Part shown: piece by piece, positions 31,294 to 59,815 of the stretch | Layout: every line of letters starts with the position of its first letter | How positions within the stretch are numbered: the stretch's first letter is position 1 | DNA from: Metarhizium brunneum | Lineage: Eukaryota > Ascomycota > Sordariomycetes > Hypocreales > Clavicipitaceae | NCBI RefSeq assembly: GCF_013426205.1 | Contig: NC_089428.1 | Coordinates: 2,480,001-2,544,000 of the forward strand | Length of the DNA: 64,000 bases | Reading direction: 5' to 3' | Notes under the pieces: model-generated | Database searches by the model: none | What the model was told of the DNA's origin: nothing | Seen by the model: only the letters and a program-made list of their open reading frames with translations | Made by a program: the position numbers and the translations under genes

Positions 31294-33654
31294 TCAATTA
31301 GTCCCCGATAGCAAAAGCTCAGCCTCCTGTTCTAGGTGAGGAGGAGAGAAGGCCTCATCGTAGTTAATTTCAGGAATTTGCGGGTTATTTTCGGGATGGA
31401 CATGCTGAGCAGGTTTCGAAAGTGGTTCGGGACCTCGCTGAACTACTGGTGTTGAATTCTGGGGATTCATAGAGGGCGGTAGCGCAGGCGTTGCAACGGG
31501 TGCTTCCAAGGGTCCCTTCATCTCCCAGCGCACATCCTGTGACGTGCTAGCTAGATCATGCACTACTGCTCGTCCTAGCTCCTCGGCCGGCTGTATTTGG
31601 GTGACCTGCTCTGCCCCAGCCTGCTCTCCCACGGCTTGAATCCCCCCGACCTGGTCCTTCTTCCTATTCCTCTTTTCTGGCACTTCTGCTGCTTCATATA
31701 CTTCATCATGCTTGCGTTTCTTTTCTTTGGCCCGATTTGGATTCTTAGTCGGGGGTGTCAAGTGCGCCAGCGCTTGAGTCGGGATACCCGCTGGATCTAC
31801 TGGTGGGCCAACGTAGAGATCAGACGCCCGAGTCGCTGGGATGTCTGGGACATTCTGCTGCCTGAATGTGAACTTGGGCCTTTTGCCCCGAACGCGCGGC
31901 TTGTCGCGACTTGTTGCAGACCGAGCAATACCTCGAGGCATTTTGTCCTTTCCTTTCTTTTTGGGGCGCGTTTCATTATTGCCCCTTGGCCATAACTTTA
32001 ATACTTCACCTAGCCTTGTGTCTTCGTTTATCTCTGCCTCACTCCTCCATGCCTCATTTGGCTCTGTTGTATCCACGTCCATTTCAGCACGGAGAGATGC
32101 AGCTGATGCCAGCGATGGAACCTTCGGTTTACCCCCAAAAAAAGCTTGCAAAATATCGCTTTGCACACGTAGCTCTGGTGGCACCTTGTCATCTAGGGGT
32201 TCCGCGAATAGTTGTGGGAAAAAAGACGATTGCAGTAGGATGTGGTACCCCGCGAGGCAAGGTTTTCCACTGCGCCAGTCCCTCCTCCTCTTCGGCTGGG
32301 TGTACGATATGTGCCGGTTCTCAATCGGGTGAAGACGCCCTTTCTCAATATTCGCGTTAGAGAAACCTAAATCTTTAAGAGTGACACAGAGACGGCTTAG
32401 AACGCTATTATCAAAATTGCCCGCCATCCACACTCTCTTGTCAAAGTCCCTTAGAGGCGCCTCGGGTGACAAGTAAGGGAAGTAGCGCAATGCGGCTAGA
32501 AATGCTTGAATGACTGCAGCGTCGGCAGTTGGCTCATTCACCTGGATCATGCGACCGTGGCCGACTTCCATCGAAGCCCCACGACTGTTCCAGTCCTTTT
32601 TTAAATTCTCAATAAGACTGGAACACATGGGCTCGATTGTATCAGCCCCGCTCTCTGACGGCCTGTTCTCAATGTGTTTCTCAAGGATTTTAGCTCCAAT
32701 CGTCAAATATCTCATGTTTTCATGAAAGGTCTGGATGCTAGGTATTGAATCCGGGAGCTCAAGAATGTTGTCTTTAATTCTGTCTCGAGCACTCTTTGAT
32801 AAAATGCCAGGAAACAGTGTTCCGTCCTCAAAAAGATCGCAGATCTGTGCTCGGTCTTGCGAATTCCACGACGGCGCCCGATATTGAAGAATTGCAACTG
32901 TATTTGCATCAAATAGATGCAGCTTGTCTTCATGTCCAGCCATTATTTTCAAAGCGACGTTCTTAATATGCACCCAATAGTTGATGATGAGCGGATTGAT
33001 GCGGGCGGCCAGATGTTTTGCCCAGTTACCAAGCTGAAGTCCATCCCAATAACCAGGAAAACAAAGCATGCTATCCATAGCTGCTATTATATGCGGATGT
33101 TTCAATAGACTACCCAGTATCTTCCTCTTGGACCCCGACAGCTTGTCCATCCAGGCTTGGGCAACAGACACACGATTCTTTTTCCAAGACCCGGCCATGT
33201 AATACCGCACGTTCTGGAAGACGGCACCATCGCAAATCTTGCGAGGTTGTACTAGCATATTGATAAGAACGTGACCAAACGCTTCGATGGTAATCTTCAA
33301 TTATGACATACCTGGAATGCAGTACAAGCGTACGTTGCAAATATGATCCCTTCCGAGGGCAGCCTTCGCTCTGTCCAGATCGAAGTCCTTGGCAGCGTAG
33401 AAAACTTGGTGATCATTGATCAAAGGACTAGATTCCAATTCAAGCGTCGCATACAATTGCTCGGGTGAGTAGCTCAAGTCCCGTAGAATGTCATCTCGGG
33501 ACCTTGGAGTAATCCGAACTGAGATGGCATGTCCTGGATCACGAAGATGCTCAATGATGTTGATCGGGAATGACGATGAATCAACATCCAAATCCTCGCT
33601 CTTCAGACTCGACAAAGGGACTCGAGCTTTTCCTTCTAGATACTTAGACTCCAT
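31294..33654 (-). CDS. DUF3723-family protein
   Basis: Exons 33654-33312 and 33251-31294 join in phase 1 (GTATGT donor, GCTAG acceptor) to 766 residues. The region around residues 115-260 (VRYYMAGSWKKNRVSVAQAW, PGYWDGLQLGNWAKHLAARI, ANTVAILQYRAPSW, then IPSIQTFHENMRYL) follows the DUF3723 pattern. The C-terminal third is Lys/Arg/Pro rich with several nuclear-type clusters (RPKKKGKDK, KEKKRKHDE, EKRNRKKD). DUF3723 proteins are of unknown function but are one of the recurrent accessory families of Starship elements. It is divergently paired with the next gene, 289 bases away. Confidence 0.7.
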
Positions 33655-33943
33655 CTTCTGTGGTTACTGGCAACTTCTTGGCGGCGTTGATGGTTCAGCC
33701 AAGCCAGAGTAATTATACAAATGGGTACTACTATTTGTCCTGCAGAGTTAAATCTAATACAGTCCAAGAAATATATAATACAAGGGTATTGTTTAAAGCC
33801 CACAACAACCGGTCTCCCGGTCCCCGGTGTCAGTGCCCCATCGGACAAGGCAAAATTAAAAATAATACCCAACGCCCAGGCTCCAGTGGACTCCGTCTCC
33901 CGCACACCGACACACACAATCTTGCCGTCGCAATCCCCTAAGC

Positions 33944-35879
33944 ATGCAGCCCAACGACCTCCTCCACATTCGGTCTAGTGCAGCTGGTCTTCCTGGGCCA
34001 TACCTGCAAGAAAACATGGCGCCGTACGAAATTCTCGACAAAATAGGCGAAGCAAAACCACGGACCATTCTTCTTATACAGGGGCATACTGAGCAAGGCG
34101 ATAGTCTCAAGGGCGCCATGAGATTCCCATATAGAAAATTCGCCATAGCCCTTCAGCGTCAAGGGTCTAACTTAGTGGTGATGTGCGACATGCACAAGCA
34201 ACCAGGCAACGCCATACCTCGCATCATAGCGGGGCCCGTTCCAGGCAACTACTGTTACCACCTGGTGCAACAGCCGCCCGCAACCATGACAGATTTGGCT
34301 TACAGAGTTTATTGCGATGTCTTTGCTTTGTTCAGCGACATAGTGTTAATCTCTGTAGCGGATTTCGGTGGACTTGAACGGGTCCTGTCGTTTGTATGCT
34401 CTTGGGTCCTGCGCCGACAGTTGCAAAAACCCAAGCTTCGGACTCACTTTGTTGTCGCAACTGACAAATACTGCTTAAAGGACATTCAATTTGAACTTCT
34501 AGCTACTATGATGGCAGACCAGTGGACACAATCAGTGGCGAGTGTAAAAAGAACAATAAGTGATTATACAGAGCTCAGCGTTATTAACGAGTCTTCTGCC
34601 AGCCCTGGCCTGGTAGTAAAGCTATTTGGTCTCAGGAACCATCGACAAGCTGAAGGGCTTCACTTCACTGGGTCCGATACTAGAATACTCCTTCGCGCCG
34701 CTATTGCACATTATACTGCCAAACCCATGGAGACATTCAATTTGGTCGCCGCATCCCGCCCGTCATGGCCAGTCCCTGAAGAACTGGGCCACCACATTGG
34801 AGAATTTTTGGCGGCTTGCCCTCCAGAGCCTGTGGACCATTACCCCATCATTGCGTCCGCACTTGTAATGAACGCATTTCACCCAGGATTACACTGTGAG
34901 TAATCTGCCACTACAACCGAATCTTTTCTAACGCAAATTAGCGTTTCCTCCGAACCTGACGTTTGAGTCTTTATATGTCAAGCACTTGGCCGCATTTGAA
35001 CAGCAGGCAGGCTGCAAGGGCTTAACGGACCGGGTCCGCAGCGCGTTTGTCGACATCGCCAAATACACGATCGGACCCGTGGTTGAACCTAGGGTACAAC
35101 ATCTCGCCAGACTGCAAGGCTGGAGACCCATTTCGAGCGTGAAACTCCGAGCGACTTGCTCAATCTGTCTCATCAGGGCCGGTGTTTTCATGATGGATTG
35201 CAGTCACTTACTATGCGACTATTGTGTTGCCACCTGTTGCTTGCCTGTACAACCTTGCCACTACCAGTCGTCACGGTGCTTTTTATGCCAGCAACCAAAT
35301 CGTACTACGTTTGTGCTGAACCCGCCTACGGCTGGACTCCGCAAATTGGAGCTGGGCTGCCCAGCACGACGGCTGTACAACACGGCGGAGAGGCTGTTCT
35401 GTTCCCTTTTTTACATCGAATTGAGCCACAAACCAAACTTCTACGCCTCTCCAGACAACTGCGTGGTCAAAATTCTTTGCCGTACACATCCAAGTCCGGC
35501 TCTCACGAGAACTCTAGCCTGGCTTCATGTAAACCGAATCCACATCAAGTACAGAGGCCATCAGTCTAGTACGTTAGAAGCAGTGCTTTGCACGGCCGAG
35601 GTCTTACAGAAATGCTGGGAAGGGCAGCCGTTTTGCAGAACGGTAGTTATTGCTGCACATTCTCTGGATACCATAATCCAAATGCAGTTAGGCCCCATTG
35701 AAGGAAGGTTTCATCATGTCAGTAACTCTCCGTATAAGCTGGGTCATCTTCTTCAGCATCAAGAACAAGGCTGGCTCTTCAATAGCCAAGGACATCCGCA
35801 GAATTGGGAGCGGAGCTGTAATAGTGCACTACAACTAGAACTAGACCGACTTATAGAGGTAATAAGATTGACATTGTAA
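33944..35879 (+). CDS. patatin-phospholipase-type protein lacking the patatin core
   Basis: Exons 33944-34895 and 34942-35879 join in phase 1 (GTGAGT donor, ATTAG acceptor) to 629 residues. The N-terminal 300 residues (RTILLIQGHTEQGDSLKGAM, CDVFALFSDIVLISVADFGG) and the zinc-finger-like CSICLIRAG...CSHLLCDYC match the front of large fungal patatin-like phospholipases, in which PPTAGVR is followed by the LSLDGGG catalytic site. Here PPTAGLR is followed directly by sequence like the post-catalytic tail of that family (LFYIELSHKPNF, VKILCRTHPSPAL, SNSPYKLGHLLQHQE). GxSxG and DGG are absent. So the lipase core seems deleted and the protein cannot be an active lipase. Confidence 0.65.
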
Positions 35880-35961
35880 ATAGCTTAATTGTACACAACT
35901 GAAAAAAGATGATTCTAATGATACAAGACAAAACATGCAAAGTGGCCAAAGGCTGTTGAGA

Positions 35962-36630
35962 TCATTCGAACTTCTTGATGAGTGCTAGGATTTCTCCTCT
36001 CTTGGTCCTAGACAAAGGAGTTGGTTGGCGAACGTCCTCCTTTGTCTTGTGACTAGACTGCTTGGCCGGTTTTGTGATGCGAATGGGACAAATGGTTTCT
36101 GGGGAGGCACAGCGCTGGGCATTTGGGATGGTGTGAACCTCAGCCCATGGATGCAAGGGCTCTTCCATGAACCCCTCCCCCTCCTCACAGTGAGGAGTAC
36201 GTACAATATTCAGAAGCGCGACACCAGGCTCTGCTTCCTCCATGATGCCGGGTGATGTTTCGGTTCCTATCGAGTCGACACATGATGACGACGCTCTCGA
36301 CGAGCGATTTTCTGTCGAGTCGAGACATGACGAGGATCTCGACGAGCTCATAGCTCTTAGTACCGCGACCCCTTTGCTTGGTTTGGACATATAGGGATCC
36401 ACCTCATGAGGCCCAAGCAGATCTTGCTCGTTGATCTGCAGGAAGTCCCGAGCTAGACCAGGACGCGATTGATAGCCTCCTATACCACCATCGGGTCTCC
36501 TTGCAATGACCACTACATCGACATCGTACTGTCGGAATAAGGCGTTGGCTTTGGAAAACATTCCCCAGCTGCAGTTTAAAGTGCCGATTTCTGGTCTCTT
36601 GTTGACCTTTGAGCGCTGTCTCCGGGGCAT
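35962..36630 (-). CDS. MADS-like protein with Ser-rich tail
   Basis: A 222-residue single-exon protein starts MPRRQRSKVNKRPEIG. Residues 5-55 (SKVNKRPEIG..., MFSKANALFRQYDVDVVVIA, IGGYQSRPGLARDFL) match the gene at 41,806-42,495 and weakly follow the MADS pattern K..G.F.KA..L...DV.V......Y.S. The remainder is acidic, Ser-rich and disordered, with a basic end. A nuclear regulator is plausible; the MADS relation is weaker than for the cassette proteins. Confidence 0.45.
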   Translation of the reverse strand: MPRRQRSKVNKRPEIGTLNCSWGMFSKANALFRQYDVDVVVIARRPDGGIGGYQSRPGLARDFLQINEQDLLGPHEVDPYMSKPSKGVAVLRAMSSSRSSSCLDSTENRSSRASSSCVDSIGTETSPGIMEEAEPGVALLNIVRTPHCEEGEGFMEEPLHPWAEVHTIPNAQRCASPETICPIRITKPAKQSSHKTKEDVRQPTPLSRTKRGEILALIKKFE

Positions 36631-36654
36631 TTTGGACGCTGTGTTGAGATGCAC

Positions 36655-37107
36655 AATAAGACTCGTTATGTATTAAGTGAGCGTGGTGAAATCTAAGGTT
36701 GTACTTTGGGTGGGCATGCGTCTTCCTTTATCAAGACTTCTGTCCATCTCCTATCTCTCGATTGAATCCGGACGGCTCAGCATCCGGCGGCAAAGCACCC
36801 TTCAATGATTGATGGCTCCGAGTCCGAAGCGCCGTGCCGGAGATGGTGGGCCAGGCCGGCAGTCAGGACCCCGGTGTTTAAGTGGTCATGAGAACCGCCT
36901 CCTAGACGGGGACGCGCCTATTAAATATAGCCATTCTATTATTAGTATGGCAACTTGCAGGCATCAATCTCTATCGGCGTTTGTAGCAGTTCCTCTGCAC
37001 TACACTCGGCCCGTTCTATCCTTAACCACGCCTTGATCTTCTTCTCCCATCAACAATCCAACATTGTGCGGTAACACTTCATTTCCCTTGCAATCATAAC
37101 AGAAACC
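36655..37107. other. intergenic region
   Basis: Divergent region between the MADS-like gene and the reductase gene. No element beyond general AT-rich stretches is seen. Confidence 0.35.
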
Positions 37108-39032
37108 ATGGACGACTGGAATATATGGTACATGGTAGCACTCTTCAGTTTCATTTGCTTAGCTGTAGTCGTATGGACTTTCAAGAAAACCGTCACAAAC
37201 CCGAAACTCTTCCTCATTCGCCATTTCCGATATCCACTGGTATTTCCCAAAGGCTGGTTCAGCATCACGCGGGTACAAGCATTGACTGTGGTTCTCTTTA
37301 TGCTATCAAATTGCGCGATAGTCTTGGCTCCTTCTTTCTTCGCAGATTGGAGAAAGCTTCAACAGCGTGCCGCTCTAGCCGCAGCAGTGAATTTGGCACC
37401 ACTTTGTGTAGGAGGACGAGCACCTGTTATTGACGCTCTTAATGTCCCTCGCCGTTGGTATACCCTCATTCACTTCACTTTGGGCGTCATTGCGACATTC
37501 CAGGGAATATGCCATGCAGCCATAGCCTTGGCACATCATCCAAAGCCGGGGCAGATGACGAATTTTGGATGGGCTGTAGGTGTTCGCAAAATGAGAGCGA
37601 AGTGGCATACTGACAACAGCAGGTGTTTGGTTTGATCATCGGATCCTCTTGTATGGCGATACCAATTATAAAGCGATCCTTGGGGAAATGGTTTCAATGG
37701 TCCCATAGGGCAACGTCAGTCGGAGCCATGGTTGCCCTGCTCTGGCATATCTTACAGACATCGTCCAATCGTGCTCGGATTCTAGTCTGTTCCTCTTTTG
37801 GACTATGGCTCCTTACAACCGCGGTACGAGTTCTGAAGATGCTATACTATAAACATACGGCCGAAGTTACATACGTTTCCAACACTGCGGGCGCTGTCTT
37901 CGTCAACGTTAGACTGGACCATCCGATCTTATTAAAACCCGGTTGTTATTTCTACATTTTCTTCCCCATGACTTGGCCACCATTGGTGTGGATAAGATAC
38001 AATTTTCTTCATAGCTTTACGGCCATTGCACAGTACAATTCACCGGCCGACAAAAGCGGACAAGTGTCTACTGTGAGCTTCCTCCTCTCCCGTCATGGAA
38101 ATCACGGGACGGCCGTCTCAATGCTCCATGAAGGAAGTCTTCTATTTCTAGATGGACCTTACGGCCAAGAGGTAGACTTGGCAACGGATGATATATTAAT
38201 TTTGGCTGCGAAGGGTATGGGTATTGCAGGTGTACTTCCGATGGTTACAGACCTCGCGCTACGCCGAGACCATGACAACCGCATCAGAGAAAGAATCCAA
38301 GGTTTAACAGAAAGACTCGGAAATGAAGGTAATAATGAAGCGCTTTTAAAAGAAATTGCGTACGTAAAGGCAATGCGTCTGTTTCGTGACGCAACCAAAA
38401 AAGTCATCTTATTCTGGTCTCTAGAATGCAATTCTCAGATGGAATGGGTTGAGAAACAGCTCAAGTGGCTTCAAGAGATGGACCCCCATAATGTAAGTTT
38501 TCATTCCTCAAAATAACATCTTATTGACTGGCATAGAAACTACTCGTGGTTTGGTGTCGTTATCCTGATTTGCGGACTGGTCATGATCCCTTTGACCTCG
38601 GATCTCGCTTCTGGATGTGCTTAGACTCAAGTGCAACACCCTCATTTGAGAAACTCATCCCAATCAAAATAAAGGAAGAAAGATTGCGCATGGCCGGAAG
38701 AATGACTGTTTTTGGTATGCAGGTCACTGAGTCGCGTTTTCTTCATAAGGCTTACATGTACAGCTTGCGGCGATGCGTATTTTACGGCCTTGATGCGAGA
38801 CGGGACTATCAAGATCCTCAAGGACAAGCCCGTCAAGTTTCTTGAATCCGAGTATCAAAGTCGTTCTTTGGTACGAGTGAGCTCAGTGGAAGGACCCCGC
38901 CGTGGGAACCCACGGAAAAGGAAGAAGCTGCGAGGGCATACCGAGCGTTTAGAGCTTCAGAATATGGCCAATAATAGACAAACAACGTATTCGCCAGTAT
39001 CCGAGGGGAGTTTTTACTCTGTAAAGTTGTAA
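37108..39032 (+). CDS. ferric-reductase-like transmembrane protein
   Basis: Four exons (37108-37575, 37623-38492, 38537-38714, 38764-39032) join in phase to 594 residues. The N-terminal half is a multi-span membrane domain with His-bearing helices (WYTLIHFTLGVIATFQGICH, WFQWSHRATSVGAMVALLWHI). The C-terminal half has the FAD/NAD(P) reductase layout: a weak FAD site (FLHSFTA in place of HPFT), LLFLDGPYGQ and GMGIAGVLPM nucleotide loop, and an end TACGDAYFTALMRDG-like stretch preserved only if the last intron is removed. The family reduces extracellular ferric or cupric ions with cytosolic NAD(P)H. Ferric reductases are a recurrent Starship cargo. Several heme and flavin positions look divergent. 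Confidence 0.8.
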
Positions 39033-39386
39033 TTCATTTTTTAGGTCATCTTAGCTATTCTACGGTTCTTGGGCTAGTTTGATAAATGTACGCTGTCTTT
39101 AGTTACTCTTAAATTGTCCCGTTTTACAGTGAATGCTTGGTTTGCCGTCAGCCCAAATGGAGCAGGGAAAACAGCCTCTAGGAAGCTCTGCTGGACGAAC
39201 CCCCCACGTTAAAGTTAGTGCACGAAAGTACAACCCAGAAACCCCGTAACTACAAGGCGATTAATCTTAATCCGGCGGCAACTCAAAATGGAATGTGTCG
39301 CGGCTATGCTGATGTATATATTCGTCGACACTTCCGCCTGTCCACCACATCTGGATCCGTAGCATTATACTTCAACCATAACAATC

Positions 39387-42495: not shown

Positions 42496-42639
42496 CTGTG
42501 CCCCAGCGTCCCAAACATGATTAATACCTGAGACATCGCGAGAGCGAAGGTTAGTAGCCATGTTATGCCGGAGGAATAGGTCGGATGGTATGGGCTTAGT
42601 TAAATGAGAATGGTGATATTGCTCCTGAAGTTTGTACAT

Positions 42640-45439: not shown

Positions 45440-45890
45440 ATGCCTGACTCTGAAGACTCCACTGTCGGCTGGATCTGCGCTATAACTACGGAACAATTAC
45501 ACACTGGGCAGGATTGGAAAACACAACGTTGTCATCGCTATCTTGCCAGATGGGGAATTCGGCACATCCTCTGTGGCACTCGCTGCAAGAGATATGCTGC
45601 ACAGCTTCCCTGGTGTCAGAATGGGTTTGATGGTCGGCATCGCTGGCGGTGCGCCAAGTGCATACCAAGATGTCCCACTAGGCGACGTCGTTGTCAGTGC
45701 TCCTGGCGACAGGAATGGCGGCATATTTCAGTATGACTTCGGCAAGACGATCCAGGGAGAATCCAATGGGAAACGTTGCCCACCACAGGTTTCCTAAACC
45801 AGCCCCATTGTCCTACGAATTGCGGTGAACGGACTAAAGGCACAGTATAACATTCACAGTAATCAGATTGAACAGGCTATCAGCGAGGCA
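45440..45890 (+). pseudogene. NLR N-terminal nucleoside-phosphorylase-like domain, relic
   Basis: It starts [18 protein letters not shown], the usual beginning of the purine/uridine phosphorylase-like (PNP_UDP) domain found at the front of many fungal NLR (STAND) proteins. The next 20-30 codons of the family are missing and the frame shifts; the conserved sequence resumes with [20 protein letters not shown] and [42 protein letters not shown] second frameshift follows and the relic ends with IAVNGLKAQY-like sequence. No NACHT/NB-ARC or repeat domain follows. Intact proteins of this type act in non-self recognition and cell death in fungi; this one cannot be functional. Confidence 0.75.
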
Positions 45891-46747
45891 GGTGGCTTGT
45901 ACTCCGCCCCTTGATAGATTGGCGGGAGAGTGTGCAATTAAAACGGCGCTAAAAATGCAAAGTCGGCTATAGCAATAGTGGCGTGTGGCGGTGCAACCTG
46001 GCCAAGGAGACACAGTCTCCCCGCCAGACGAGAACATACAGAAGATACAAGCGTCAATGAATACAATCATCAATTTTGACCTCAATAACGGACCTAACCC
46101 CGGTAGTAACTCAAGTGGGGCATCGTGAAATTTGACACCCCTCTTGGTGCCCTGATTTCTCATCAGTCTGCCTTGCATTTACGACGATCGATTCTTCACA
46201 AGCCAGTCACGACAACGCTTCACAGAATGCAGACCCGCACTTTACCCGCACTTTGCCGGGGTTTCAGCCGTCCTTGCATCGACTCGCAACACAGGCACAC
46301 ACGGAACAGTCTCGAGGGATCTTTTGTGGGATGATATATCCACTTTGTCCGGGTGGCAAGATGTGGTGAGGCATGGTCTGTGCCTACTGCCTAACGAGGA
46401 TTGGCGGGCGATCGGGGCGTGATGCATTTTGCATGCATTTAGAGAGAGGATCGTGCCTCTCTCGCATAGAATAGGCTGCTATTAGTGCTACTAGAAGGAA
46501 TTCAGTAGACCTATAATTTTGCTCTTTTAGACGCAACAGCCTAAAGGCATACCCACTAAAGCCATGTCTTGCCAACTCCCGCCAAGGTGGGCCCTGGCTG
46601 GTGTGCGAGGCGACTTGGAGCTTAATAAAGCCCTTGATCCCCTCAGAATATAAGTCCCATCGCGGGGCATTACGAGGAGTTTGAAGAGCCCAGCACAACC
46701 CGTCCCTCTTGGCATAAGATCGGGCCATAGACGAAAGACGGGGGACC
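45891..46747. other. intergenic region
   Basis: Contains only antisense frames of the arrestin-like gene and short featureless frames. Confidence 0.35.
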
Positions 46748-48313
46748 ATGGCAGAGCACCCAGCTTCGCGATTCCTTAAGGACGACAGTGACGTGGCAAT
46801 AGAGTTTCTCGGGGCACAGTTAGAGAATGGAGGATGCGTACGACCAGCTGACATCTTGGAAGGTCGAGTTCGTGTGTCATCAAGACATCCTCTATCTTTC
46901 AGCAGATTTGAGGTGCATCTTGAAGGTAAGTTTATGTTCTCATTCACCCTTTTGTGGTATTTACTGTACCAGTGGGGTCTACTAATGGCAGTACAGCTGA
47001 AGAAACCACAACTGTTACCATCGATGAGGCGACGCCACATACCTTTTCCAGAGCGGTCCGTTTCTATGATCAGATATCGTCACAGTCTATGGCAAACTGA
47101 CATGCCGCAGTTATTAGATGTCGCGTGTTATCCTTCTGTTTCACAGGATCCCGGAATCGACAATGAGGGATCCGAGCACATATACAGCATCCCCTTCTTC
47201 TTCGTTATGCCCGATGGTACTGAGTTCGTTCCGTTTTCACGGCATGCATTACCCCCTTCTTTCAACCGCCATAATGCTTTATTATCCTCCTGGAGCCCTA
47301 CACCGATTCCAGATATTTCAATCTTGTACTTCCTTCAGGTTGTTTTGACCTACAAGCCGGGAAAGGCTGGGACTGCGGGCACGCCGACCACATCTACAGT
47401 GACCAAACCGATTAAGTTTCTTCCTTACATCGAGGTCCCCCCTCCTATAGATACTGACAGCTTCCCTGGAGAGTTTACACTTAGTATACAAAGGCCCATC
47501 TGGAAGAACGTTCTTCATAGTCGCCTGGGACTTGCCATCATCAGCGTGAGGGAGCCACAGCCGCTGGCGTATTCATCGGATGTCGCCCGAGGTTCCACTG
47601 AATGTCAGCTAAGTATTACTATCGAGTGTGATCTTCTGGCATTCCACCGGCTGCGATGCGTAACAGTTACGGCCCTTCCCACGATCTGTGCAAAGACATA
47701 CTTTTCTTCCAAAAAGATGGTATGCGTGCCTGCACAGAGTCAACTCACCAGTCATGGGTCCGTCCAAATGCACCAGGACTTGCTACGACTAAGCAGCCAA
47801 AAGTTCCAGGGTCTGCAGTGGGCATTCTCACCCGCAGATATGTCCACTTGTAACCCAGCCGAGCACGACGAACGGTTTGCCCCTTCCGGATATTCGTCAC
47901 CGTCTGCCTGCCTCCGAGACTTGAATATAAACTCAACAAGCGGTGTGGTATCATGTTGCTCAGAAGACGCATCATCTATGAGACGACAGGCAGGGAAGTG
48001 GCAAACATCGATCTGTGTGCCCATAATGCCACCTCGTACGCTGCAACCGAGTTTCTGCAGCCATCTCATTGCACGGTCATATTCATTGCGTCTCCAAGTT
48101 TCCTTTGGCGGTGTCTACACGAGCAAAATCGACCTTCAGGTACCGCTCCAGGTATCATACCCACAGCCGCCGATATTGCCATTGCATACTGAGTGCATTA
48201 ATTCACAACAATCGCAGAGGAGCGAAAGTATGGGCAGCTGTTGTAGCTTGTCGAATCATGTGAGTTCTCCCCTGCAAGTCTGTGATTTGACTACTGCAGC
48301 TAACCAAGCATAA
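46748..48313 (+). CDS. arrestin-like (alpha-arrestin family) protein
   Basis: The continuous frame of 521 codons hides two introns: 46926-46996 (GTAAGT...ACAG) and about 47089-47146, where only a GC donor (ATG|GCAAAC) keeps phase with the CACAG acceptor. Spliced, residues 1-75 read VAIEFLGAQLENGG, EGRVRVSSRHPLSFSRFEV and TTVTIDEATPHTFSRAVRF, an arrestin N-type fold; later LPPSFN, FLQVVLTYKPGKAG, EFTLSIQRPIW and a C-type part with ICVPIMPPRTLQPSFCSHLI and SYSLRLQVSFGG. Alpha-arrestins act as adaptors for ubiquitin ligases in membrane-protein traffic; I see no PY motif. The second intron is the uncertain point. Confidence 0.75.
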   Translation: MAEHPASRFLKDDSDVAIEFLGAQLENGGCVRPADILEGRVRVSSRHPLSFSRFEVHLEGKFMFSFTLLWYLLYQWGLLMAVQLKKPQLLPSMRRRHIPFPERSVSMIRYRHSLWQTDMPQLLDVACYPSVSQDPGIDNEGSEHIYSIPFFFVMPDGTEFVPFSRHALPPSFNRHNALLSSWSPTPIPDISILYFLQVVLTYKPGKAGTAGTPTTSTVTKPIKFLPYIEVPPPIDTDSFPGEFTLSIQRPIWKNVLHSRLGLAIISVREPQPLAYSSDVARGSTECQLSITIECDLLAFHRLRCVTVTALPTICAKTYFSSKKMVCVPAQSQLTSHGSVQMHQDLLRLSSQKFQGLQWAFSPADMSTCNPAEHDERFAPSGYSSPSACLRDLNINSTSGVVSCCSEDASSMRRQAGKWQTSICVPIMPPRTLQPSFCSHLIARSYSLRLQVSFGGVYTSKIDLQVPLQVSYPQPPILPLHTECINSQQSQRSESMGSCCSLSNHVSSPLQVCDLTTAANQA

Positions 48314-50918
48314 TTTTGGAGACTCTGCCTCCGTATAATGAGATTATAGGCTAGCAGTAGTTTTGCAGCGTGTTACATGCGTATAAGGTGTCAAATAGGC
48401 AATAATAACAGAGACTGCTAGCTTTCGGGTAAGAATGAAGAATTCGAAATGACCAAGATAGGGGTTTGAATCAGAGCTTGAGAGGCAGATGGAGAGAAAA
48501 GGATGCTGGCCAAACTCAAAGCGGCAAAGAACTGGAAATTTGCTGGGATAAGATGCAACAGAACATAGGTCTACGGGACTTCTTCCAAGAACTTCATGTA
48601 TTCCAGCTAATCCAGCCAGCCAGCCCCTTGCCTCCCTAACAATCTTCTCACTCAACTTCCATAACCTCACATCTGTGATAGGTATCTCTTCTGGGACTTT
48701 TTGCCCACTGTCTCTTTCACCCCTCCGATGTTCACTCAAGTGATACCGGTATTGTTCACACTGTGCAATCTGTCTAGTCGACTGCATGTACAACCTTCTT
48801 GAGACAGAATCTTAGTGGCAGTTCATGCACCACAGACGTGAATTGACTGTCTCAAACTTCGCCAGACGTACCGAGAATGAACCTGCCAAGGATACGTGTC
48901 GTGGTGCATCCACCCAGTGCGCCAATCGTCTCACAACAACGCCGCAACTAGAATATGGTAAGACGCTATAATAAGGGAGCTGATTGCCTGTAAATGGCAG
49001 AAGCTCTTTATTCTTTTTAAACACCTTAATTACAACTTACGAGGCAAATTTCGAACCGAAAACTGGCAAGTGGCCTAATTGGATTAGCTCTGCTTTTGAA
49101 GTCGATTAATACTTATTGCCACTTACTGGTGGAATGATGACCGCCACACACTGTTACTATTCCACCAGTAAGTGGGGTCACGGCATAATGCAAGCTACAG
49201 GTCTAAAGCGCTGGGGATGCAGTGGACTGACTACGAACAACTAAGCTGAAGAGAACGAAAGCAGAAGCTTGTGATGTTGTCTGCTACACAGGTTTAAACC
49301 CCAATCTGGGGCTACATGGCGATCGGGCAGTAGTCGTCAGGCTGACCGTGACTGGCATTACCTAATTCCGGAATGACAATCCATTTCAACAATTAGTTTA
49401 TCATTTGAGAAATTGGTGTCCCTAGGAGTTGATTGGCCTTGACGCAGCGTTCTCCCACTTAGCCTCGGTGGCGAGCACTGACACTGGCAGTTGTTTACAG
49501 TTTGGACGGTCCTATTCGAAGTCACATCTGCATAGTACGTTCCTTGCAACTATTATAAGTGTGAACAAAGCTGAAAACTGATATCCTGTAGTGGTGATGT
49601 TGGCCTTAGCCTGGGATACCCTGACGTCGCGACTTCCCTACGCGGCGTGTTCGGTACCTCCAGTAAGCTTATTATCTGTGTCATGAAGATCTGCGGGCGC
49701 CACCGCGGGCTACCATACACTCTTGATAAGGCCATTATGCTTTTAGACGAGTATGGCCAGCGTAGCGGGATTGTGGACTTGAAAAGAGAAGAATGGGCAA
49801 TGTCGTCGCTACGACTTTGAAGGGTGGCGTGGGAAAGGATTGTGCCGTGAAGTCAGTTAACCTGTTGGTAATAAGCTGGATCACTCTCTAGGAAGTGGTC
49901 TAGCGATGATATCATCCTACCTAGTCGCCTCCTATGCTTCTCATTTAGCAGCCTCTAAAATCTGGTTTGTTGCTTGCCGTCGCTGCCATACTACAACACC
50001 TGGTCACTTGCAGAATCGCAACCCTGCTGGGCTCGCTCCGCTTGCTCGATGCCCTTGTAGTTGTGTTTCCAGTACTAACTCGAGTGGCCATTGTCAATGT
50101 GACTCAACCTTGGGACAGTTCCACGTGTCATGTATTGTGAGGACATAGCTCATAGACACAATCATGAATCCAAAGATCCACCTCGCTTCGAACATTCATC
50201 TGGCAAAAACAATGGCTTGAGCCCACAAAGTGCCATGCATAGCTAGCCAGAATAGCAATCAGGCGAATGAAAGGGCTCACCTATTGATCCCATTGATCAG
50301 GATTCGCCGTTGCTGCGTTAGTGGACACATGTGGCTTGTGGAATTGCCGCAACTTCGGGCAACCCACCCATTGCGGCCGCAGTGCCAGCACGTAAATTCT
50401 CCATCGTATTGCGGCCAACGGGCGTAATTTCCCATCTGCCACCTCAACCTAAGTTTCGAGCTTATAGGATTCGTGGAGCGTGAGAGTGGACTCCGTTTCT
50501 TATTGGACAGATTTCTTATTTTACAAAGGAAAAAAAAACCTCTTTCTTACTGACGCTGCCGCGAATCCCCGTTCGTCAGAAACCTCGCTAACTCAGATGG
50601 AGTGGCTTGCCTGCTCGGCATGTCGATTGCCATCGGTGGGGGTGCTCTAACTCCACCAAAGACTCGTCAGTGTGAGCTTTAATAAACTTGCCGTGGGTGG
50701 CGGCCTGCGGTGAGCGGGCCAAGATTTTACGGTTTCTTGCTCACTTTGGTTTGGTTCACAATTTCTCCCATTATAGTCCATCTTACTACTACAACTTGTT
50801 CGCCCGGTACTTGACAAGGACAACTTACATTGTCAGCTTCATCGCAAATCAACAGCTTTGCATTGCATGTCTGCGAGCATCTACCGTCACTCTACACTTA
50901 ACTCTAGCCTTTCTGGCA
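48314..50918. other. 2.6 kb without a supported gene
   Basis: Short frames only; a 149-codon minus-strand frame at 48,344-48,793 has no motif. The region holds the inverted repeat at 49,119-49,175 and a tRNA-like A-box word just before it. The last 200 bases are probably the promoter and leader of the ATPase gene. Confidence 0.4.
49119..49175. repeat. perfect 17-base inverted repeat with 23-base loop
   Basis: CCACTTACTGGTGGAAT at 49,119-49,135 is the exact reverse complement of 49,159-49,175. It is a strong hairpin. No gene ends immediately before it, so it is more likely a small foldback element than a terminator. Confidence 0.9.
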
Positions 50919-53900
50919 ATGTGCGGCAATCAGAACGAGGTGGTACGGAAGCATGTCTCGGGCCAGTCTAATAGGCCCATGTCGGCGCCTGCTCACGCTC
51001 TCGAAATCGAACAGATCGTAAAAGAGCTCAAAGCAGATGTTGAAGTTGGTCTGTCCGACGAAGAGGCACAGGCGCGACTGGAGGAGCACGGTCGCAATGA
51101 GTTTGGCGTAGAAAAGGGTGTGCAGCCTGTGAGAATCTTCATCGGCCAAATCGCCAATGCTTTGACCTTGGTGAGTTTATTGACCAGGCTTTTAGAGGGA
51201 CCACGCAAAGAGCGCAGCGTCACGGCATGCTTCACCTGTTGGTGTATAAGGCGCCGTTCTGATGTCACTAACATATTAATCGTAGGTCCTGATTTTGGCC
51301 ATGGCTGCATCGTTTGGCATCCAGTCTTGGATCGAGGGTGGCGTCATTTCTGCCGTCATCATTCTTAATATTGTAGTTGGCTTTTTCCAGGAGCTCAAGG
51401 CGGCGAAGACCATGAACTCCCTGCGTTCTCTTAGTTCTCCTACTGCCCAAGCAATCCGCAACGGCAACAATGCGACCATTGTCACGGCCGAGATCGTGCC
51501 TGGAGATGTGGTCGATCTCAAGACTGGTGACACTATTCCGGCAGACATCCGCCTGGTTGAGGCCATCAACTTCGAGACCGATGAAGCCCTCCTCACTGGC
51601 GAGTCCATTCCTGTGCGCAAGGAAACGGCTCCAACTTACCCAGAAGACACAGGTCCGGGTGATCGTCTCAACGTCGCATACAGCTCCTCGACCGTGACCA
51701 AGGGCCGAGCTCGGGGTGTCGTTTTTGCCACTGGTCTGTACACCGAGATTGGTCAGATAGCTGCTGCCCTACGGGATAAGGTGTCCCGTCGTCGCCAGCC
51801 CAAAAAACGCGAGGATGGTACAACTACCTTTGGTCTCTGGCTTCAGGCTTGGACTTTGACCTTTTCCGATGCTGTTGGACGCTTTCTCGGTGTGAATGTC
51901 GGCACCCCACTCCAAAAGAAGCTCTCTAAGCTGGCTTTGTTGCTTCTCGGCACGGCTGTGGTTTGTGCCGTTATCGTACTTGGTGCAAACAAGTTCGACA
52001 CCAAACAGGAAGTCATCATCTACGCCGTTGCTACCGGCCTTTCCATGATCCCCGCCTCCTTGATTGTGGTGTTGACAATTACCATGGCAGCTGGCACGAA
52101 GCGCATGGTTCAGCGTCATGTTATTGTCCGCAACCTTAAGAGCCTCGAGGCACTTGGTGCGGTTTCTAGTACGCGTCTTACACCCATTCACCTTGTCAAT
52201 CGCTTAACTTGCTAGTAGATATCTGCTCGGACAAAACGGGTACGCTCACCCAAGGTAACATGATCGTTAAGAAGGCATGGGTCCCTGGCCGCGGTACCTA
52301 TTCGGTTCGTACAACTAGCGAACCTCTGAACCCTACTGTTGGCAAGCTTTGCCTTAAGAACGCCCAGCCAAAAGACATTGACTTTCGTGGTGCCGGTACC
52401 GATGGTGAGCCCATCGATGGCCACCAAGTTGTCGGCACAGATCCCACTCTCAGGGAGTATCTCAATGTTGCCTCACTTGCCAATCTCGCCTCTGTGAACC
52501 AAGTTAATGGCGAATGGCACGGACGAGGTGATCCTACTGAGATTGCAATCCAGGTATTTTCGTCCCGCTTTAATTGGAACCGACTCCGTCTGTCAACAGG
52601 AGATGGTGCTGAGTGGCACCGAAAGGCTGAGTTTCCATTTGACTCAGATGTGAAGAAGATGTCTGTCATTTTTGTGAACATGGCGACACAGAGGCAGTGG
52701 CTATTTACTAAAGGTGCCGTGGAGCGAGTTCTCACGTGCTGCTCCAGTTACGCCGTCGGCGATGAAACCAAAACCTTATCTGAAGATGTCAGGGTCGATA
52801 TTCTCAACAACATGGAAGCCATGGCCCGTCTTGGTCTTCGTGTCCTTGCATTCGCTAGCAAGACAAACATGTGTCATATCAAGGAGAATGAAGCCGAATT
52901 CGAGAGGGGAAGCTTTGAAATAGATCTCACGTTTCGTGGCCTAATTGGTCTTTACGACCCTCCCCGTCCTGAATCTGCTCCCTCTGTTCGGATGTGTCAT
53001 GAGGCCGGAATCAGTGTCCACATGTTAACTGGTGACCACCCAGAAACTGCACGTGCTATAGCTCTCGAGGTAGGCATCTTGCCGTCGAGAATAGACAATG
53101 TTGCCACCAACGTTGCCAAGACCATGGTCATGGCCGCGTCTGATTTTGACAAACTAACGGACCAGGAAATTGACAAGCTCCCTCTTCTCCCACTTGTCGT
53201 CGCTCGCTGCGCGCCGCAGACTAAGGTTCGCATGATTGAAGCTCTCCACCGTCGAAAGGCGTTTGTCGCCATGACTGGTGACGGAGTCAACGACTCGCCT
53301 AGCTTGAAACGTGCTGATGTCGGCATCGCCATGGGACAAGCCGGCTCCGATGTTGCTAAGGAGGCTTCAGACATCGTGCTAACTGATGACAACTTTGCCT
53401 CTATCCTCAACGCTGTAGAGGAAGGCCGCCGTATGTTTGACAACATCCAAAAGTTCATCCTGCACGTCTTGGCCGAAAATATTGCCCAGGCTTGCACACT
53501 GTTAATTGGTCTCGCATTCAAAGACAGCCGCGGCATCTCAGTATTTCCGTTGGCGCCGGTTGAAATCCTTTGGATCATCATGGTCACCTCTGGCATGCCT
53601 GACATGGGACTTGGCTTCGAGATTGCTGCGCCGGATATCATGCAGCGTCCGCCTCAAAATGTGAGTTTTACCCTCCAGTCCTACTAAGGCTCCGTCTGAC
53701 CATGTCTCAGTTGAAACAAGGTGTCTTCACACCGGAGCTTCTCCTCGACATGGTTGTCTACGGCCTGTGGATGTCCGCACTCTGCCTGGCTTCTTTTGTT
53801 TTGGTTCTCTACGGCTTCGGAAACGGTGCTGCAGACATTGGCGACAATTGTAACAACGAATACTCTGCAGACTGTGAGGTCGTCTTCCGCGCTCGGGCCA

Positions 53901-54412
53901 CGACGTTTGCATGTCTCACCTGGTTCGCGCTCTTTCTAGCGTGGGAGATGGTCAACATGCGCCGTTCCTTCTTCCGCATGCAGCCCAAGAGCAAGAAGTA
54001 CTTTACGCAGTGGACTGTTGACGTCTGGCGCAACAAGTTCCTGTTCTGGGCCATTGTCGCCGGCTTTGTCACTACGTTCCCTCTCATCTATATTCCCAAG
54101 CTCAACACAGTCGTCTTCAAGCACGCCGGTATCAGTTGGGAGTGGGGCATTGTCTTCATTGAGGCTGCGCTCTTCTTCTTAGGCATTGAAGGGTGGAAGT
54201 GGGTGAAGCGGGTCTACTTCCGCCACCAGGCGAAGGAGGGCGGCAATTTCAAGTCGGACCTCGAGGCACGCGTCTTTAGATACTATTTCGGCGCCGGCAG
54301 CGCCAGCAGCGACGAAGTTATAGGTACCAACGTGGACAACGAAATCACGACATCCGAGAAGAAGATCTGCACCAGCAGCAACGGTGTCGGCGAAAGCGAG
54401 AAGGGGCAATGA
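50919..54412 (+). CDS. ENA: ENA-type P-type ATPase (Na+/K+ efflux)
   Basis: Exons 50919-51170, 51286-52168, 52219-53660 and 53711-54412 join in phase to 1,092 residues, the normal family length. Key motifs are present: ALLTGES (actuator, about residue 188), CSDKTGTLTQ with phosphorylated Asp near 383, LTGDHPETA, TGDGVNDSP, and ten likely membrane helices. The order and the opening MSAPAHALEIEQ...LSDEEAQARLEEHG-type N-domain are those of fungal type IID pumps, which export Na+, Li+ or K+ across the plasma membrane at high salt or alkaline pH. The residue before ICSDKTG is Asn where Asp is common. The gene looks intact. In a mobile element it would be a selectable cargo. Confidence 0.93.
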
Positions 54413-55423
54413 CATGAGGCTGGCAAAGAGTCTGTCGATTTCGGGGGTTTGCGAGACGGTGGCATACGGTGGCCGAGTTGGCGATGCCACTGAGGTGAGT
54501 TGACTCCTGCGGGGATGGAGCGGCCATTTGCAGTATCGGTAATGAGACGTGCAGACCCTCACTACTGCAATGAACCCGCTCATGGATACAGACGTGGGCA
54601 TTCGCTCGTGGGTATCTTTCGATGTCAAATCTATTAAATACATTGTATTTTAAAAAGGGTGTCCCTACTGAATTACATCTGTTTCCAAAGTTGCGATGAT
54701 CTCCACAAGCGGGGAGCACCATTTTCCCTCCGAGCCGAGATCGCAACCTATCCTGTCAAGGTAGAATGCATATGCAGAATATTTAATCGGCTCCGTCTCG
54801 GATTTGACCCAGACTCATGATTCTTATGGAATCATCCTTTTGTCGAAGTTTGGTCGATAAATGGATAGTACAGATAAGAAGTCGTTAGTGAAGCTTTGCT
54901 CCATAACGGAGTTCAGCCTGAGTTGTAGTTGAAACAGACAGTGAGGACAGATGAACGTAGCCGTTTGAATGAGAAAGCCCTCTAGCAAGACGAAAGCTGC
55001 GTAAAAACTGCGAGTATCTTGTTTCGCACGCTGTGATCCAGATGAATCTCAAAAACAACCGTTTTATTAGCAGTAGACGAAAAGCCTAACTATAGCCTGT
55101 TTGACAGTCCTAGGCTGAAGCATGTGCTAGGAGTTCGCTTTTTTCCCGCCGTGCCTGTGAGGGTGATCAATTTTGATCATGTGCGGCGAATGGCACTGGA
55201 TCCACTGAACCAGTCCCAAGTAATTGCACCCGCCCCGTGAAGTTGTGTTGCCATTATGGTATGGTGATACCGTATAACACCCAGAAAAAGCCATATGCTG
55301 GCTGTAAATCTGGCTTGACAGCAGGTTGACAATCAAAACTCATGTTGAAAAGTGGACGGCGGCAGGAGAAACTGTCTGCGAAGTCAAAAACATAAGATAG
55401 CGCCTATCAGGCTTTTATTTATG
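54413..55423. other. 1.0 kb intergenic region
   Basis: Convergent 3' region between the ATPase and the chromo-like gene. No gene or repeat recognised. Confidence 0.45.
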
Positions 55424-56077
55424 TTATCTACTCGATCTTGTAGATAAAGCAAGACGACCAGACTTATTCATTTCCTCATCCCACGTATCTTTGTCATACT
55501 TATTGATGATGAGCTCCTCAGCTTCTTTCAGTGCCCGACTTCCCCGGAGGTCCTCAAGAGTGCCCCAAGTTGGCTTCCAACAGATCTTGAACTGAATGCG
55601 TCCGTCGACACCTTCCCGGATCGCTCCTAAACGTGAGTACTCAAAAACCTGTCTTCCGCTAACCGAGGCGCGCTTCTTCTGAATACGATGTTCGCCAGAG
55701 CCAGTAGTTCTTGTTGTATTATACTTTCTTTTCTGATTACTCCGTCGGATCCTCCCAGTGGTCTCTTCATCGTCCGCCACACGTATTGTAGCACCTTCCA
55801 AGTCAGCCTCTGGGCTAACAATTCTCGATATCATATCTCCTGAATCCAAGTTGGAGCCTCCGACACCATTTTTTAGGACGGACTGAAGATGTTCGCAAGA
55901 GCTTTGCGGGTCAATGCCGGGAACAGCATCGTAGTGCCTTGCATTGATAGGTGATGACCCGGCTGGGGGTGCGAAAGACTCCTTCGCGGAGACAAAGGAT
56001 CGTCGTAATGAACTGTGGCGAGCGGGGGACGTCCAGGAATAATTCTTCTCCAAAGTAATTCGATCCATTCTCACCAT
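55424..56077 (-). CDS. protein with a chromo-like C-terminal domain
   Basis: A 217-residue single-exon protein. The first 140 residues are polar and disordered with basic clusters (RIRRSNQKRKYN, RIQKKRAS). The C-terminus reads FEYSRLGAIREGVDGRIQFK, CWKPTWGTLEDLRGSRALKE and DTWDEEM, a pattern seen in fungal chromo-like domains (aromatic cage W/Y plus C-terminal helix). It lies 287 bases downstream of the recombinase on the same strand and may be co-inherited with it. Binding to histone tails is an inference from the fold only. Confidence 0.6.
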   Translation of the reverse strand: MVRMDRITLEKNYSWTSPARHSSLRRSFVSAKESFAPPAGSSPINARHYDAVPGIDPQSSCEHLQSVLKNGVGGSNLDSGDMISRIVSPEADLEGATIRVADDEETTGRIRRSNQKRKYNTTRTTGSGEHRIQKKRASVSGRQVFEYSRLGAIREGVDGRIQFKICWKPTWGTLEDLRGSRALKEAEELIINKYDKDTWDEEMNKSGRLALSTRSSR

Positions 56078-56363
56078 CGTGAAGTTGGCGTTCGCCTGAA
56101 GACGATGAACGCGGAGAAGAGCAATGAGGGGAGTCCGGTACGGACGTTCAAGCTCCCTTTATGGACGGAAGGGTAAGAGCACTCTGTCGACAAGAGTAGA
56201 AGGGAGGTTGGTTAAGCAAAGGTAAGCCGGGAATGATAAGTTATGGGTAAGATTGAACAAAGGTTTGAGTTCTTGCTAAGCTTCAAGGGCGGGAACGGTC
56301 CCTTTTATACTCATCACCCATCTCTAGTCACGGGTCTGGTCTCTTTCAAAACAGCCAGGCTGA

Positions 56364-59112
56364 CTACTCCCTTCCATCAACCCAGAACTCTTCATCCGCG
56401 TGAGGGTCCGGTGATGAGATTTCCCAATCCGAGTCACCACTAGCATGTGCGTAAGGTTGTGATAAGTCCGTTTTCGCCCGTTTATATGGGAGGGGACCCG
56501 ATGGTACAGCGTTACCTGCCTTTCTCTTGCGATCCACTTGTCGTCTTCTCGCAAGCTCTTTTCTGTGTTGCGCCTCGGCAGGGTTTATGTCTATTGGGGC
56601 GGTTTCAGCATCTGAAAATGAGGTCTTGTAGACCTCTATGGCTCCGAGAACTCTGTCACCTCCGTGAACGTCTGCTACGTGGGTGATCCAGCCTCCCATT
56701 CCCTCGACTTCGACCTTCCTGCCCTCTTGTAGACATGCTGGACATGAGATTGGCTCGTCAAATAGCTCACTATGAGTGTTCAGGTGGCGAGAGAACCCTC
56801 TCTGCTTGTATTGTTGGTCGCATAAGAGGCAGAGAACATCCGGTAGAGACTCTAGGTTTGGGGTGTGAACCGCGCCATGGACTCTTCGAACATGGCTACT
56901 CCAGGCACAGGGATTTGCCTCAATCACCACATCTCCAAGGTTCATCCGCTTGCACTCGGGGCACAAGAACCGGGCCTTGAAGATATGCATGTGTAGATGG
57001 CGAACATGTCTTGTGAGCGCTGACGTGTTAAAGAAGGTTCCACAGCCAAAGAGACATCGCGCGGGTTCCTTCGATTCATTCCTGAAATGAAGAACATCTC
57101 CAATCTTGTTCAGTACGCTTGCTCCGCTTATAAAAGCGACAAGACGATCGGCTAGAGCGGAAGTGATATTCGTTTGGAATAAAAGACTAGCCAGCTTAGC
57201 GGCATAGGCACTGCTGTTTCCGAACCTCTTTCTTTTTAAATTTTGCACCTCTTGCTTAAGATGTGCCGTTGATTTGTTCATTGCACGTAGCTTATCTGCT
57301 TCCTCAAAGTACTTGCGGCGTTTTTCCTGAATTTCTAGTCTCTCTAGGCAGTCAAGAGTATATCTGATTCGCGATGAGACTTTCTTTGCTTCTTGACTAG
57401 ATGACCCTTCTTTGGCTGTGATGTATTTCAGCTCCTTGCGAAGCTCTGTTATATCTTTCCTTGATTCAAATTGATCAATTTCCTTTTTAGTTAGACGTGT
57501 AGGCGCGTTTGGGTCTCGATTATGCAGGCTATTAGAGATAGCTTCCCAAAGCGCTGTGTCATGCCTTGCTTTATCGCCGAATGCGATATTCGCCAAGTTC
57601 GCACGCAGTCTAACTGGCTGATAGCTTCGCTCAAATACCTCGGTGGAATGAGATACTATAAAGTTTCGAAGTGCCGGTTGAAGACATCCTAGGGATAAAC
57701 GGTTAGAGGCAAGAAGGTACTCCAATTCAGAGGCTGCTTACCATCCAATCTACCCACCGCGCCAACACGAACTGAGTAGGGACGGAGGCTAGATCGAGAT
57801 CCCAATACCATTCGCACCTCGTTCCAAAGATTAATAAATTTATGGTAATTCATTGGCATAATATACTTATCATCACTCATAAACTCCTCTTTCCAGCGCA
57901 ACTCTACAAAGTTAACGCCCTCCTCGAGTGTTTCAGGGTGAAGCACCTCATCACAAGACGTAAACCCAGCCTCAAAGGCGTTATCTCTTATTGCTCTAAT
58001 TGTGAACATGGTAGTTAAGCATAGAACTAACGTTGGAACCACGGAGAGTGCGTAGCTCAAGCTATATGAGCCGCTTGTTAGCTTATTTATTAATTATAAG
58101 TGATGGAATAAATTATTGGGATCATTTACCTTGAACGTTGTTCTCTCTCGATTCTAAGCCGTCGAAGCTTGTTATGATCAACGGTAGACCAGCATATAGT
58201 CCGCGTAACAGATGGGTTAACAGGATCTCTAACCCACGCGAGCTTTACATGATTATACTTCTTCAGTTCTAACGCTCCTGGCCGCCAACCTCCTAGACCC
58301 ATTTCAACAACATACATAGTGAAAGAGAGTCTATCGTCAGGTGAACACCTAACATCATTTGCTCTATTCCACAAAGTGGAAAGAATAGTTAAAATATCGT
58401 CTGTAGTCGCGCCATCTTTTTGAAAAGTCTGCCCCAAGTTTAATCCGACTTCTGTGCCGAACTCAGGGATCCACTATAGTTAATTAGGGATTAGAGAAGT
58501 CTGTTGATAAGGAGAGGGGCCAAGGACTCACACGAGCTATCTCATAAGTAGGACCGCAAGTCGATGAAGTCCTCCTAGACGAATACTTCAATGACCAGAT
58601 TCCGGCATTCTCGCGATCTTGAAGCCTTTTTGGTTTCATAATCCGATCGTCTGCATGATTTACCAGCAAACACCATACATCTTCTATTGTTGACGCGCAA
58701 TTAATCGTGTGTACTTCCTCATATTCCTCAGGGCCAAGGCAGGGACGCAACGTCACAGACTGCTCCCAGTATTGTCTGAGAAATCCTTGGAAGATGGCTT
58801 GAACTTCTGGATTGCCTAAGCAAAGGTCAAACCATATATCGACCGGGTCGACTTCAGCGCAAGCGGCAAATCTACATGGAATAAAATCAGTAATAGCTCA
58901 TTGCCTAGGAATAAAGATAAGAGGGGGATGCCTCACTCTTCCCAGTTCTGCCAGATCCTTTCGCGACGCTGCCTCGTTTTTGGGTCAAGGCGGCAAACCT
59001 CACTCAGCGGCTTCTCCTGATACTTTTGCACCGCCGCCTTAGCGGCATCTTTGTTAAATTGACGCACACTCGGGCGGGCAAAGCGAAGCGAAGATTTCGT
59101 ATCTCGGGGCAT
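56364..59112 (-). CDS. DUF3435 tyrosine recombinase (Starship captain type) with C2H2 zinc fingers
   Basis: Five exons (59112-58937, 58871-58532, 58473-58130, 58061-57742, 57688-56364) join in phase to 834 residues. All introns are GT-AG. The DUF3435/FluG-type core carries the tyrosine-recombinase residues: Arg 236 in MGLGGWRPGAL, Arg 385 in LRPYSVRVGAVGRLDG, His 407 and Tyr 416 in IVSHSTEVFERSYQP (His-to-Tyr spacing 9). The C-terminal half has several C2H2-type fingers (CLFGCGTFF...H, CLLCDQQYKQRGFSRHLNTH) and a basic segment KRKAG..KRAK. DUF3435 enzymes mobilise Starship elements and stand at one end reading inward; this gene reads leftward from about 0.7 kb inside the proposed right end. 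No frame break is seen. Confidence 0.85.
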
Positions 59113-59815
59113 GATGATAAAGTGAGCGAAGGCAGCTTCAGTGGCAGTACACGTGAATGAGAAAAGGGGGGCAAAGGACTGAATGGCATGGACGGCAAAT
59201 CGCACAAGGACAAATGAAAGGGGGAGAGGGACCATTTTATCTAGTCAGTCCGTCACTTGAATTCAATCAGGCCAATGGGGCAATGGAGCCCTGCAGTACA
59301 CGTAGGCATTCTCAAGTAGGATATCACGGGCTGACCAACATGGCACATTAACGCCAGGGCGGACTGAACATGGACCTGCGACAGGACCAATGTAGAAAAA
59401 GACTTGTCGATAAAACCAGGGGGAGGAAGGGGGCGGCGGCGTTGGGCGCCTCCCCCCAGAGCCTGGGTGAGGATTTCATGCGAGTGCCAGGGTCGAAAAC
59501 AGGCAGCATGAGGGTGTGTATTACGACGCGGCGTGCGGCCGTCCATTGCCCGGCGCTTCGGTATCGGAGTGGAAAGCCCGGGGACAGAGAGCCAAAACGG
59601 TGGCAGGATGGGGAAACGGAGAGGACGGGAAAAGCGGGTCCGGGCGGGCGTTTCGGGTAAAGGTCGGGCAAGTTCACATTTCGGAGGCGGTATCCCGTCC
59701 GATCTCCCTTAATAACCTGGCGAGCGCCGGATTAGTAGTTGGGTCGGTGACGACCAGCGAATACCCGGTGTTGTATGTTATTTTTTTTCCCTAAAATAAT
59801 TTTTTTTGGCCTTAC
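59113..59815. other. captain upstream region, GC-rich with clustered CGGG/CCCG words
   Basis: From about 59,400 to 59,770 the sequence is visibly richer in G and C than the rest, with at least nine CGGG or CCCG words. It ends in an A/T-rich stretch and TTACTTAC at 59,812-59,819. No gene is supported. In Starships the segment between the end and the captain often carries short repeats bound by the recombinase; here that is inference. Confidence 0.45.

Follow-up and report, generated by a model that had tools for sequence, protein, structure and literature searches.

The window, a 64,000-nucleotide stretch of Metarhizium brunneum DNA (C7:2480001-2544000), contains a gene for a DUF3435 tyrosine recombinase, a gene for an ENA-type sodium pump, a DUF3723 gene and the 3' part of a 5S rRNA gene. 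Comparisons between loci were made within this one genome, for which the searched assembly comprises 37.77 Mb in seven contigs, and the window covers the right-hand portion of a complete Starship whose left end lies 49 kb beyond it. The whole Starship occupies C7:2430918-2539691 (108,774 bp; window coordinates -49082 to 59691), and a second copy is present on contig C1. The features are given in window coordinates, except for the one that lies outside the window:

1-59691, no strand: part of the Starship within the window, with both junctions in one 5S gene, an 8-bp direct repeat, conserved ends and none internal
1-45761, no strand: core common to the C1 element, main blocks 95-97% identical, extending left to about -8174
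31294-33300, minus strand: DUF3723 protein in one open frame (PF12520, E=1.3e-48)
37614-38516, plus strand: ferric-reductase-like fragment (PF08030, E=0.0025, under the Pfam cut-off; GPYG and GxGI motifs)
45762-55361, no strand: cassette of 9.6 kb without alignment to the C1 copy
50919-54412, plus strand: ENA-type (IID, K/Na) P-type ATPase, intact cargo gene, 1088 aa
55362-59691, no strand: captain-end block common to the C1 element, 96% identical
56364-59112, minus strand: captain, DUF3435 tyrosine recombinase, 5 exons, 834 aa, intact when spliced
59442-59691, no strand: right end of the element, with 93% identity to that of the C1 element and a degraded relative at C4:4360745
59692-59699, plus strand: target duplication ATCCCGTC, right-hand copy (5S positions 33-40), a repeat present at both junctions
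59692-59779, plus strand: 5S rRNA gene 3' part (positions 33-120), followed by a T run and matching intact 5S genes
62740-63234, plus strand: Rieske-domain ORF in the right flank, outside the element (PF00355, E=7.6e-11)
C7:2430910-2430917, outside the window: left copy of the target duplication ATCCCGTC

The captain gene (exons 59112-58937, 58871-58532, 58473-58130, 58061-57742 and 57688-56364) starts 579 bp, or about 0.6 kb, inside the right boundary and is oriented inward, which bears out the preliminary description of a captain at the right edge of the region that reads inward. That description had also called the recombinase complete, and the spliced protein indeed carries Arg236, Arg385, His407 and Tyr416 at the exact positions named, which we take to be the residues that a tyrosine recombinase uses in catalysis. 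Over its whole length the protein scores 79.2 bits against PF11917 (DUF3435; E=3.8e-22). Ser415 and Tyr416 are invariant in 12 aligned relatives, and His407 is replaced by Asn in some of them. C2H2-like Cys/His motifs can be seen by eye in the C-terminal part, and a search of the captain protein against Pfam returned no zinc-finger match.

The captain has a homologue of equal length in Metarhizium robertsii ARSEF 23 (MAA_08028, 91% over 834 aa), relatives at 32-47% in Trichoderma, Purpureocillium, Fusarium, Beauveria and Monosporascus, and a further relative in M. acridum. MAA_08028 and these relatives are annotated as hypothetical or uncharacterised, and none of the 11 matches from a broader search with alignment is named a captain. 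For the M. robertsii homologue, a low-confidence AlphaFold model (mean pLDDT 64.4) was searched with Foldseek, and its 20 best matches are tyrosine recombinases at E-values from 2.2e-3 to 0.18, namely 16 Cre structures (one of them taken as Cre), 2 Tre and 2 Flp structures. These Cre-like matches of a predicted structure are taken as supporting only.

The right boundary of the element lies inside a 5S rRNA gene, which is split after its position 40. In the window the junction falls at 59691/59692; the preliminary description had correctly seen an element extending to the left, with the insertion placed slightly off at about 59.8 kb. The first 40 bases of the 5S gene stand alone at C7:2430878-2430917, 109 kb to the left. 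When the C7 flanks are joined in silico, they form a 5S gene without gaps and with 95.2% identity to an intact copy over 125 bases, and with the C1 right half substituted the best identity is 92.0%. Since ATCCCGTC is found at both C7 junctions, the target duplication that had been sought is present, and the element has the defined ends with short target-site direct repeats expected of Starships. The first description was right in kind, but the element is about four times larger. In a DNA search with window positions 55000-64000, the homology to C1 ended in a 97-base piece that recurs at many places in the genome, and all five of the loci with this piece that were scanned with Rfam are 5S rRNA genes. 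The tRNA and Rfam scans of the window itself gave no matches; truncated 5S halves score under the Rfam threshold.

Terminal repeats had also been sought, and in this respect the element gave a negative result: no terminal inverted repeat is significant, as the best one in the first 30 bases (CTCCGA) was equalled by 204 of 1000 shuffles. The left end contains TGGAGGA at +35, +57 and +79, i.e., three repeats with a 22-base period. Because the motif occurs across the whole element (15 forward, 13 reverse) and is not restricted to the left end, its role in recombinase binding is put forward as a proposal.

The C1 element is defined by its ends at C1:8958265-9060558 (102,294 bp) and interrupts another 5S gene, the halves of which lie at C1:8958225 (left) and C1:9060591 (right). 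The stretches C1:8960501-8991500 and 8996501-9000000 are known from match coordinates alone. The same element is therefore present at different loci, another property expected of Starships. The left half on C1 reads AACCCGTC, so the direct repeat may be 6 and not 8 bases. Joining of the C1 halves did not favour their own pairing, which gave 88.6% identity, compared with 89.6% and 92.0% for swapped pairs.

The C7 and C1 elements are collinear end to end, with common blocks of 78-99% identity that alternate with unshared segments, and blocks of 98-99% directly adjoin blocks of 78-90% and unshared segments. The main span of the core, from -7463 to 45323, consists mostly of 95-99% blocks; identity drops to 72-86% in pieces near 23.8-27.1 kb and 45.4-45.8 kb, and is 88% in the left margin (-8174 to -7462). 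C7:2462801-2471825 has no match in the C1 element, and the first 9.1 kb of the C7 element match it only in the end itself and in a 64-base dispersed repeat. The uneven identity together with the unshared blocks indicates that segments have been gained and lost along the element. The core also contains repeats. A tandem duplication of about 5.85 kb lies within the element (19749-24783 and 25574-30638, 73-84% identical in pieces), and the two units of C1 show cross-matches of 88-92% with those of C7, a pattern resembling the outcome of gene conversion or re-duplication. A 143-base dispersed repeat at -738 to -597 is present in the C7 copy and absent from C1, and has relatives at several places on C4.

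Genome-wide, the 5S patterns gave 34 matches to the 5' half and 27 to the 3' half (2 and 0, respectively, with reversed-pattern controls), which combine into 23 paired 5S genes and leave 11 left and 4 right halves as orphans. We inspected seven of the left and all four of the right orphans; three of the four uninspected left halves are three-mismatch matches and possibly due to chance. The left end AAGCTCTT follows directly after 5S position 40 in six of the seven inspected left halves, which are those of C7 and C1 and four more, some degraded. An identical base (40/41) is thus used in several insertions, as expected for a Starship with a specific target. Three of the four right orphans carry the right end, which is heavily C-to-T degraded at C4:4360745, and neither element end is present at C4:694641 or C7:1026287. 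C4 also holds pieces of the element core, near 549-558 kb and near 866-882 kb.

Several further traces of such elements were observed. DUF3435 has 17 matches in the genome, in 11 loci. An extra left end with a 5S half lies at C1:8954916-8955086, 3.3 kb to the left of the left end of the C1 element, to which it is 87% identical over 171 bases with no similarity beyond. In the region of C4 from about 545 to 885 kb, which we regard as a Starship graveyard or hotspot, fragments of the core occur together with two left ends (673123 and 722355) and with genes for DUF3435 proteins at 653 and 794 kb. On C7, a stretch at about 2637-2653 kb is 91% identical to the left-arm part C7:2451782-2454822 and is adjoined by a DUF3435 gene (C7:2651805-2653261); it is probably a further related element. 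Close to the orphan 5S 3' half at C7:1026287 there are a paired 5S gene and a piece resembling the left end (C7:1023934-1024306).

Together, both ends, the 8-bp target duplication, the 5S target, the second bounded copy and the additional left ends at other 5S genes make it highly probable that the element is a Starship, one of the giant transposons that carry cargo and are mobilised by a tyrosine recombinase of the DUF3435 type. The second bounded copy at another locus is evidence for transposition. The captain end of a Starship, as the preliminary description had read the region, is supported by its ends, duplication, target and second copy; the split 5S gene and the ENA-type ATPase are additions to that reading. 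Mechanistically, the captain would bind both element ends, at the left one through the three 22-bp repeats around TGGAGGA, and would use a cut-and-join reaction of Tyr416 to recombine the element with ATCCCGTC in dispersed 5S genes. The cargo would travel along with the captain-driven element and would also turn over, as suggested by the alternation of shared blocks and unshared segments in the collinear elements, and the ENA pump lies in one such unshared segment of the window copy.

A genuine Starship could also have lost its mobility, and we consider this a real but lesser possibility. Long and intact cargo frames were seldom recognised, some relatives of the ends are degraded, and the C7 and C1 copies are several percent apart and therefore not a recent pair. 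However, both captains are intact. The C1 captain has 834 aa and 98.6% identity to the C7 captain, and the alignment is ungapped over 2749 bases. The values of dN (0.0067) and dS (0.042), with a dN/dS of about 0.16, indicate purifying selection since the copies diverged. Differences between the copies have a transition/transversion ratio of 1.39-1.93 with no one-sided C-to-T excess, which likewise argues against an immobile element.

Two elements, adjacent or nested, might instead share the one 5S gene, the left one with a relic captain and the right one with the captain of the window. A DUF3435 relic with stops does lie 2.8 kb in from the left end, on the plus strand at C7:2433734-2434842 (window -46266 to -45158); it reads inward and is 89% identical to C4:793713. 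In addition, the left ends of C7 and C1 are 81% identical over 213 bases, compared with 95-99% for most core blocks. Still, this arrangement is very improbable, as neither an additional end, left or right, nor a further ATCCCGTC junction was found within the C7 element, the relic shows homology over roughly the length of a gene (1.9 kb), and C1 has no DUF3435 match near its left end. C1 is moreover collinear with C7 through the left arm too, in blocks of 78-98% at C7:2447258-2448154 (in pieces), 2451037-2455672 and 2457964-2462800. A plain segmental duplication shared by C7 and C1, whose edge happens to hold a 5S fragment, would account for the long collinear blocks of 95-99%, but can be rejected with hardly any reservation, because the homology is bounded by 5S pieces on both sides with different flanks and none past the 5S halves in the flanks examined, six left ends share a single 5S base, and the direct repeat is present at both C7 ends.

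Within the Starship, the cargo matches the preliminary description in part. The 'full accessory signature' claimed there was overstated: the DUF3723 protein within 28 kb of the captain is certain, the ferric reductase is a weak fragment that has the motifs and scores under the cut-off, and the patatin-type protein and the NLR-type relic were not found in the frames scanned. No Pfam match to patatin or NLR was found in the scanned window frames, which comprised 25 of the 26 frames of at least 200 aa and 25 of the 182 frames of 80-199 aa, and the two frames taken to be the patatin candidate, 33866-34903 and 34932-35879, had no Pfam match up to E=1. Neither the patatin GGGxRG motif nor a P-loop was present in frames of at least 90 aa in the C7 element or in C1:9000001-9060558, a search that an intron-split motif would escape. 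The left arm beyond the window encodes a methyltransferase, a chromodomain protein and a DUF7492 protein. The cassette that carries the ENA gene also has an open frame of 531 aa (46718-48313) with a weak match to Bul1_C (arrestin-like, E=0.016). To the right of the element, the Rieske-domain ORF is consistent with the conserved oxidoreductase described there.

The ENA gene (exons 50919-51170, 51286-52156, 52219-53660 and 53711-54412) lies inside the cassette that does not align to C1 and is thus found in the window copy only. Two of its frames match TIGR01523 with 377 and 616 bits, each singly under the 645-bit cut-off. Over its full length, the protein has 100% identity to one from M. brunneum ARSEF 3297. 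A relative on C3 is 77% identical. In a tree of 24 rows (the window protein and 23 hand-picked from 120 listed), the pump joins a M. majus protein and then Purpureocillium with a support of 89/91. With groups named after the tree had been seen, a single clade with the native Metarhizium pumps was rejected (p-AU 4.6e-5), and a position as sister to the Clavicipitaceae clade was not rejected (p 0.19). The phylogeny suggests that the cargo ENA was likely gained by horizontal transfer, and it may alternatively be an old paralogue. More tentatively, these elements could be mosaic Starships docked in 5S genes that keep their ends and captain and exchange cargo by recombination with each other and with other Starships. 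In this way the window copy might have acquired a second sodium pump that is foreign to the native Metarhizium lineage, with a Purpureocillium-like fungus as a possible donor; we rate this as conceivable, with the odds against it.

In the accessible part of one study, the Osiris Starships of A. fumigatus, which belong to the Enterprise family, are described as inserting in and fragmenting 5S genes, with direct repeats longer than 6 bp accompanying the 5S target (PMC12153272). The same part gives terminal inverted repeats as common and not universal in Starships (18 of 20 in A. fumigatus; PMC12153272). Like Osiris, the Metarhizium element has a tyrosine-recombinase captain, a broken 5S rRNA gene and a direct repeat longer than 6 bp, and its 5S rDNA target is that of the Osiris-like members of the Enterprise family. 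Unlike Osiris as described in that part of the paper, it resides in another fungus and carries other cargo, and the likeness stands on captain type, 5S target and repeat length. A preference of certain captain families for 5S rDNA is stated in the available portion of another report (PMC12134995). DUF3723, FRE, PLP and NLR genes are named as Starship companions in the available text of a third, which gives AGAATACAGGGC as the Voyager target and reports Starships inserting in 5S rDNA (PMC10128009). Among these companions, the C7 element has DUF3723 and a fragment of a ferric reductase, and in the scanned frames neither patatin nor NLR was found. As far as that text describes it, Voyager resembles our element in combining DUF3435 with DUF3723, with 5S rDNA insertion reported for Starships, but differs in its target, AGAATACAGGGC, from the C7 repeat, ATCCCGTC. 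Even with up to 2 mismatches allowed, AGAATACAGGGC occurs neither at the two C7 junctions nor at any of the five 5S loci checked, and a Voyager target site at C7 was therefore rejected. A limited literature search found no description of a Starship in Metarhizium; in the accessible part of PMC12289983, the genus occurs solely in the reference list.

The Metarhizium element is a further Starship of an already known kind. A complete and base-exact Starship is now available for Metarhizium, whose species are pathogens of insects and find use in biocontrol. With two intact captains in one genome and with defined target and ends, target choice, end recognition and cargo exchange become testable. 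Furthermore, our results show that dispersed 5S genes are repeatedly broken at one base outside Aspergillus too.
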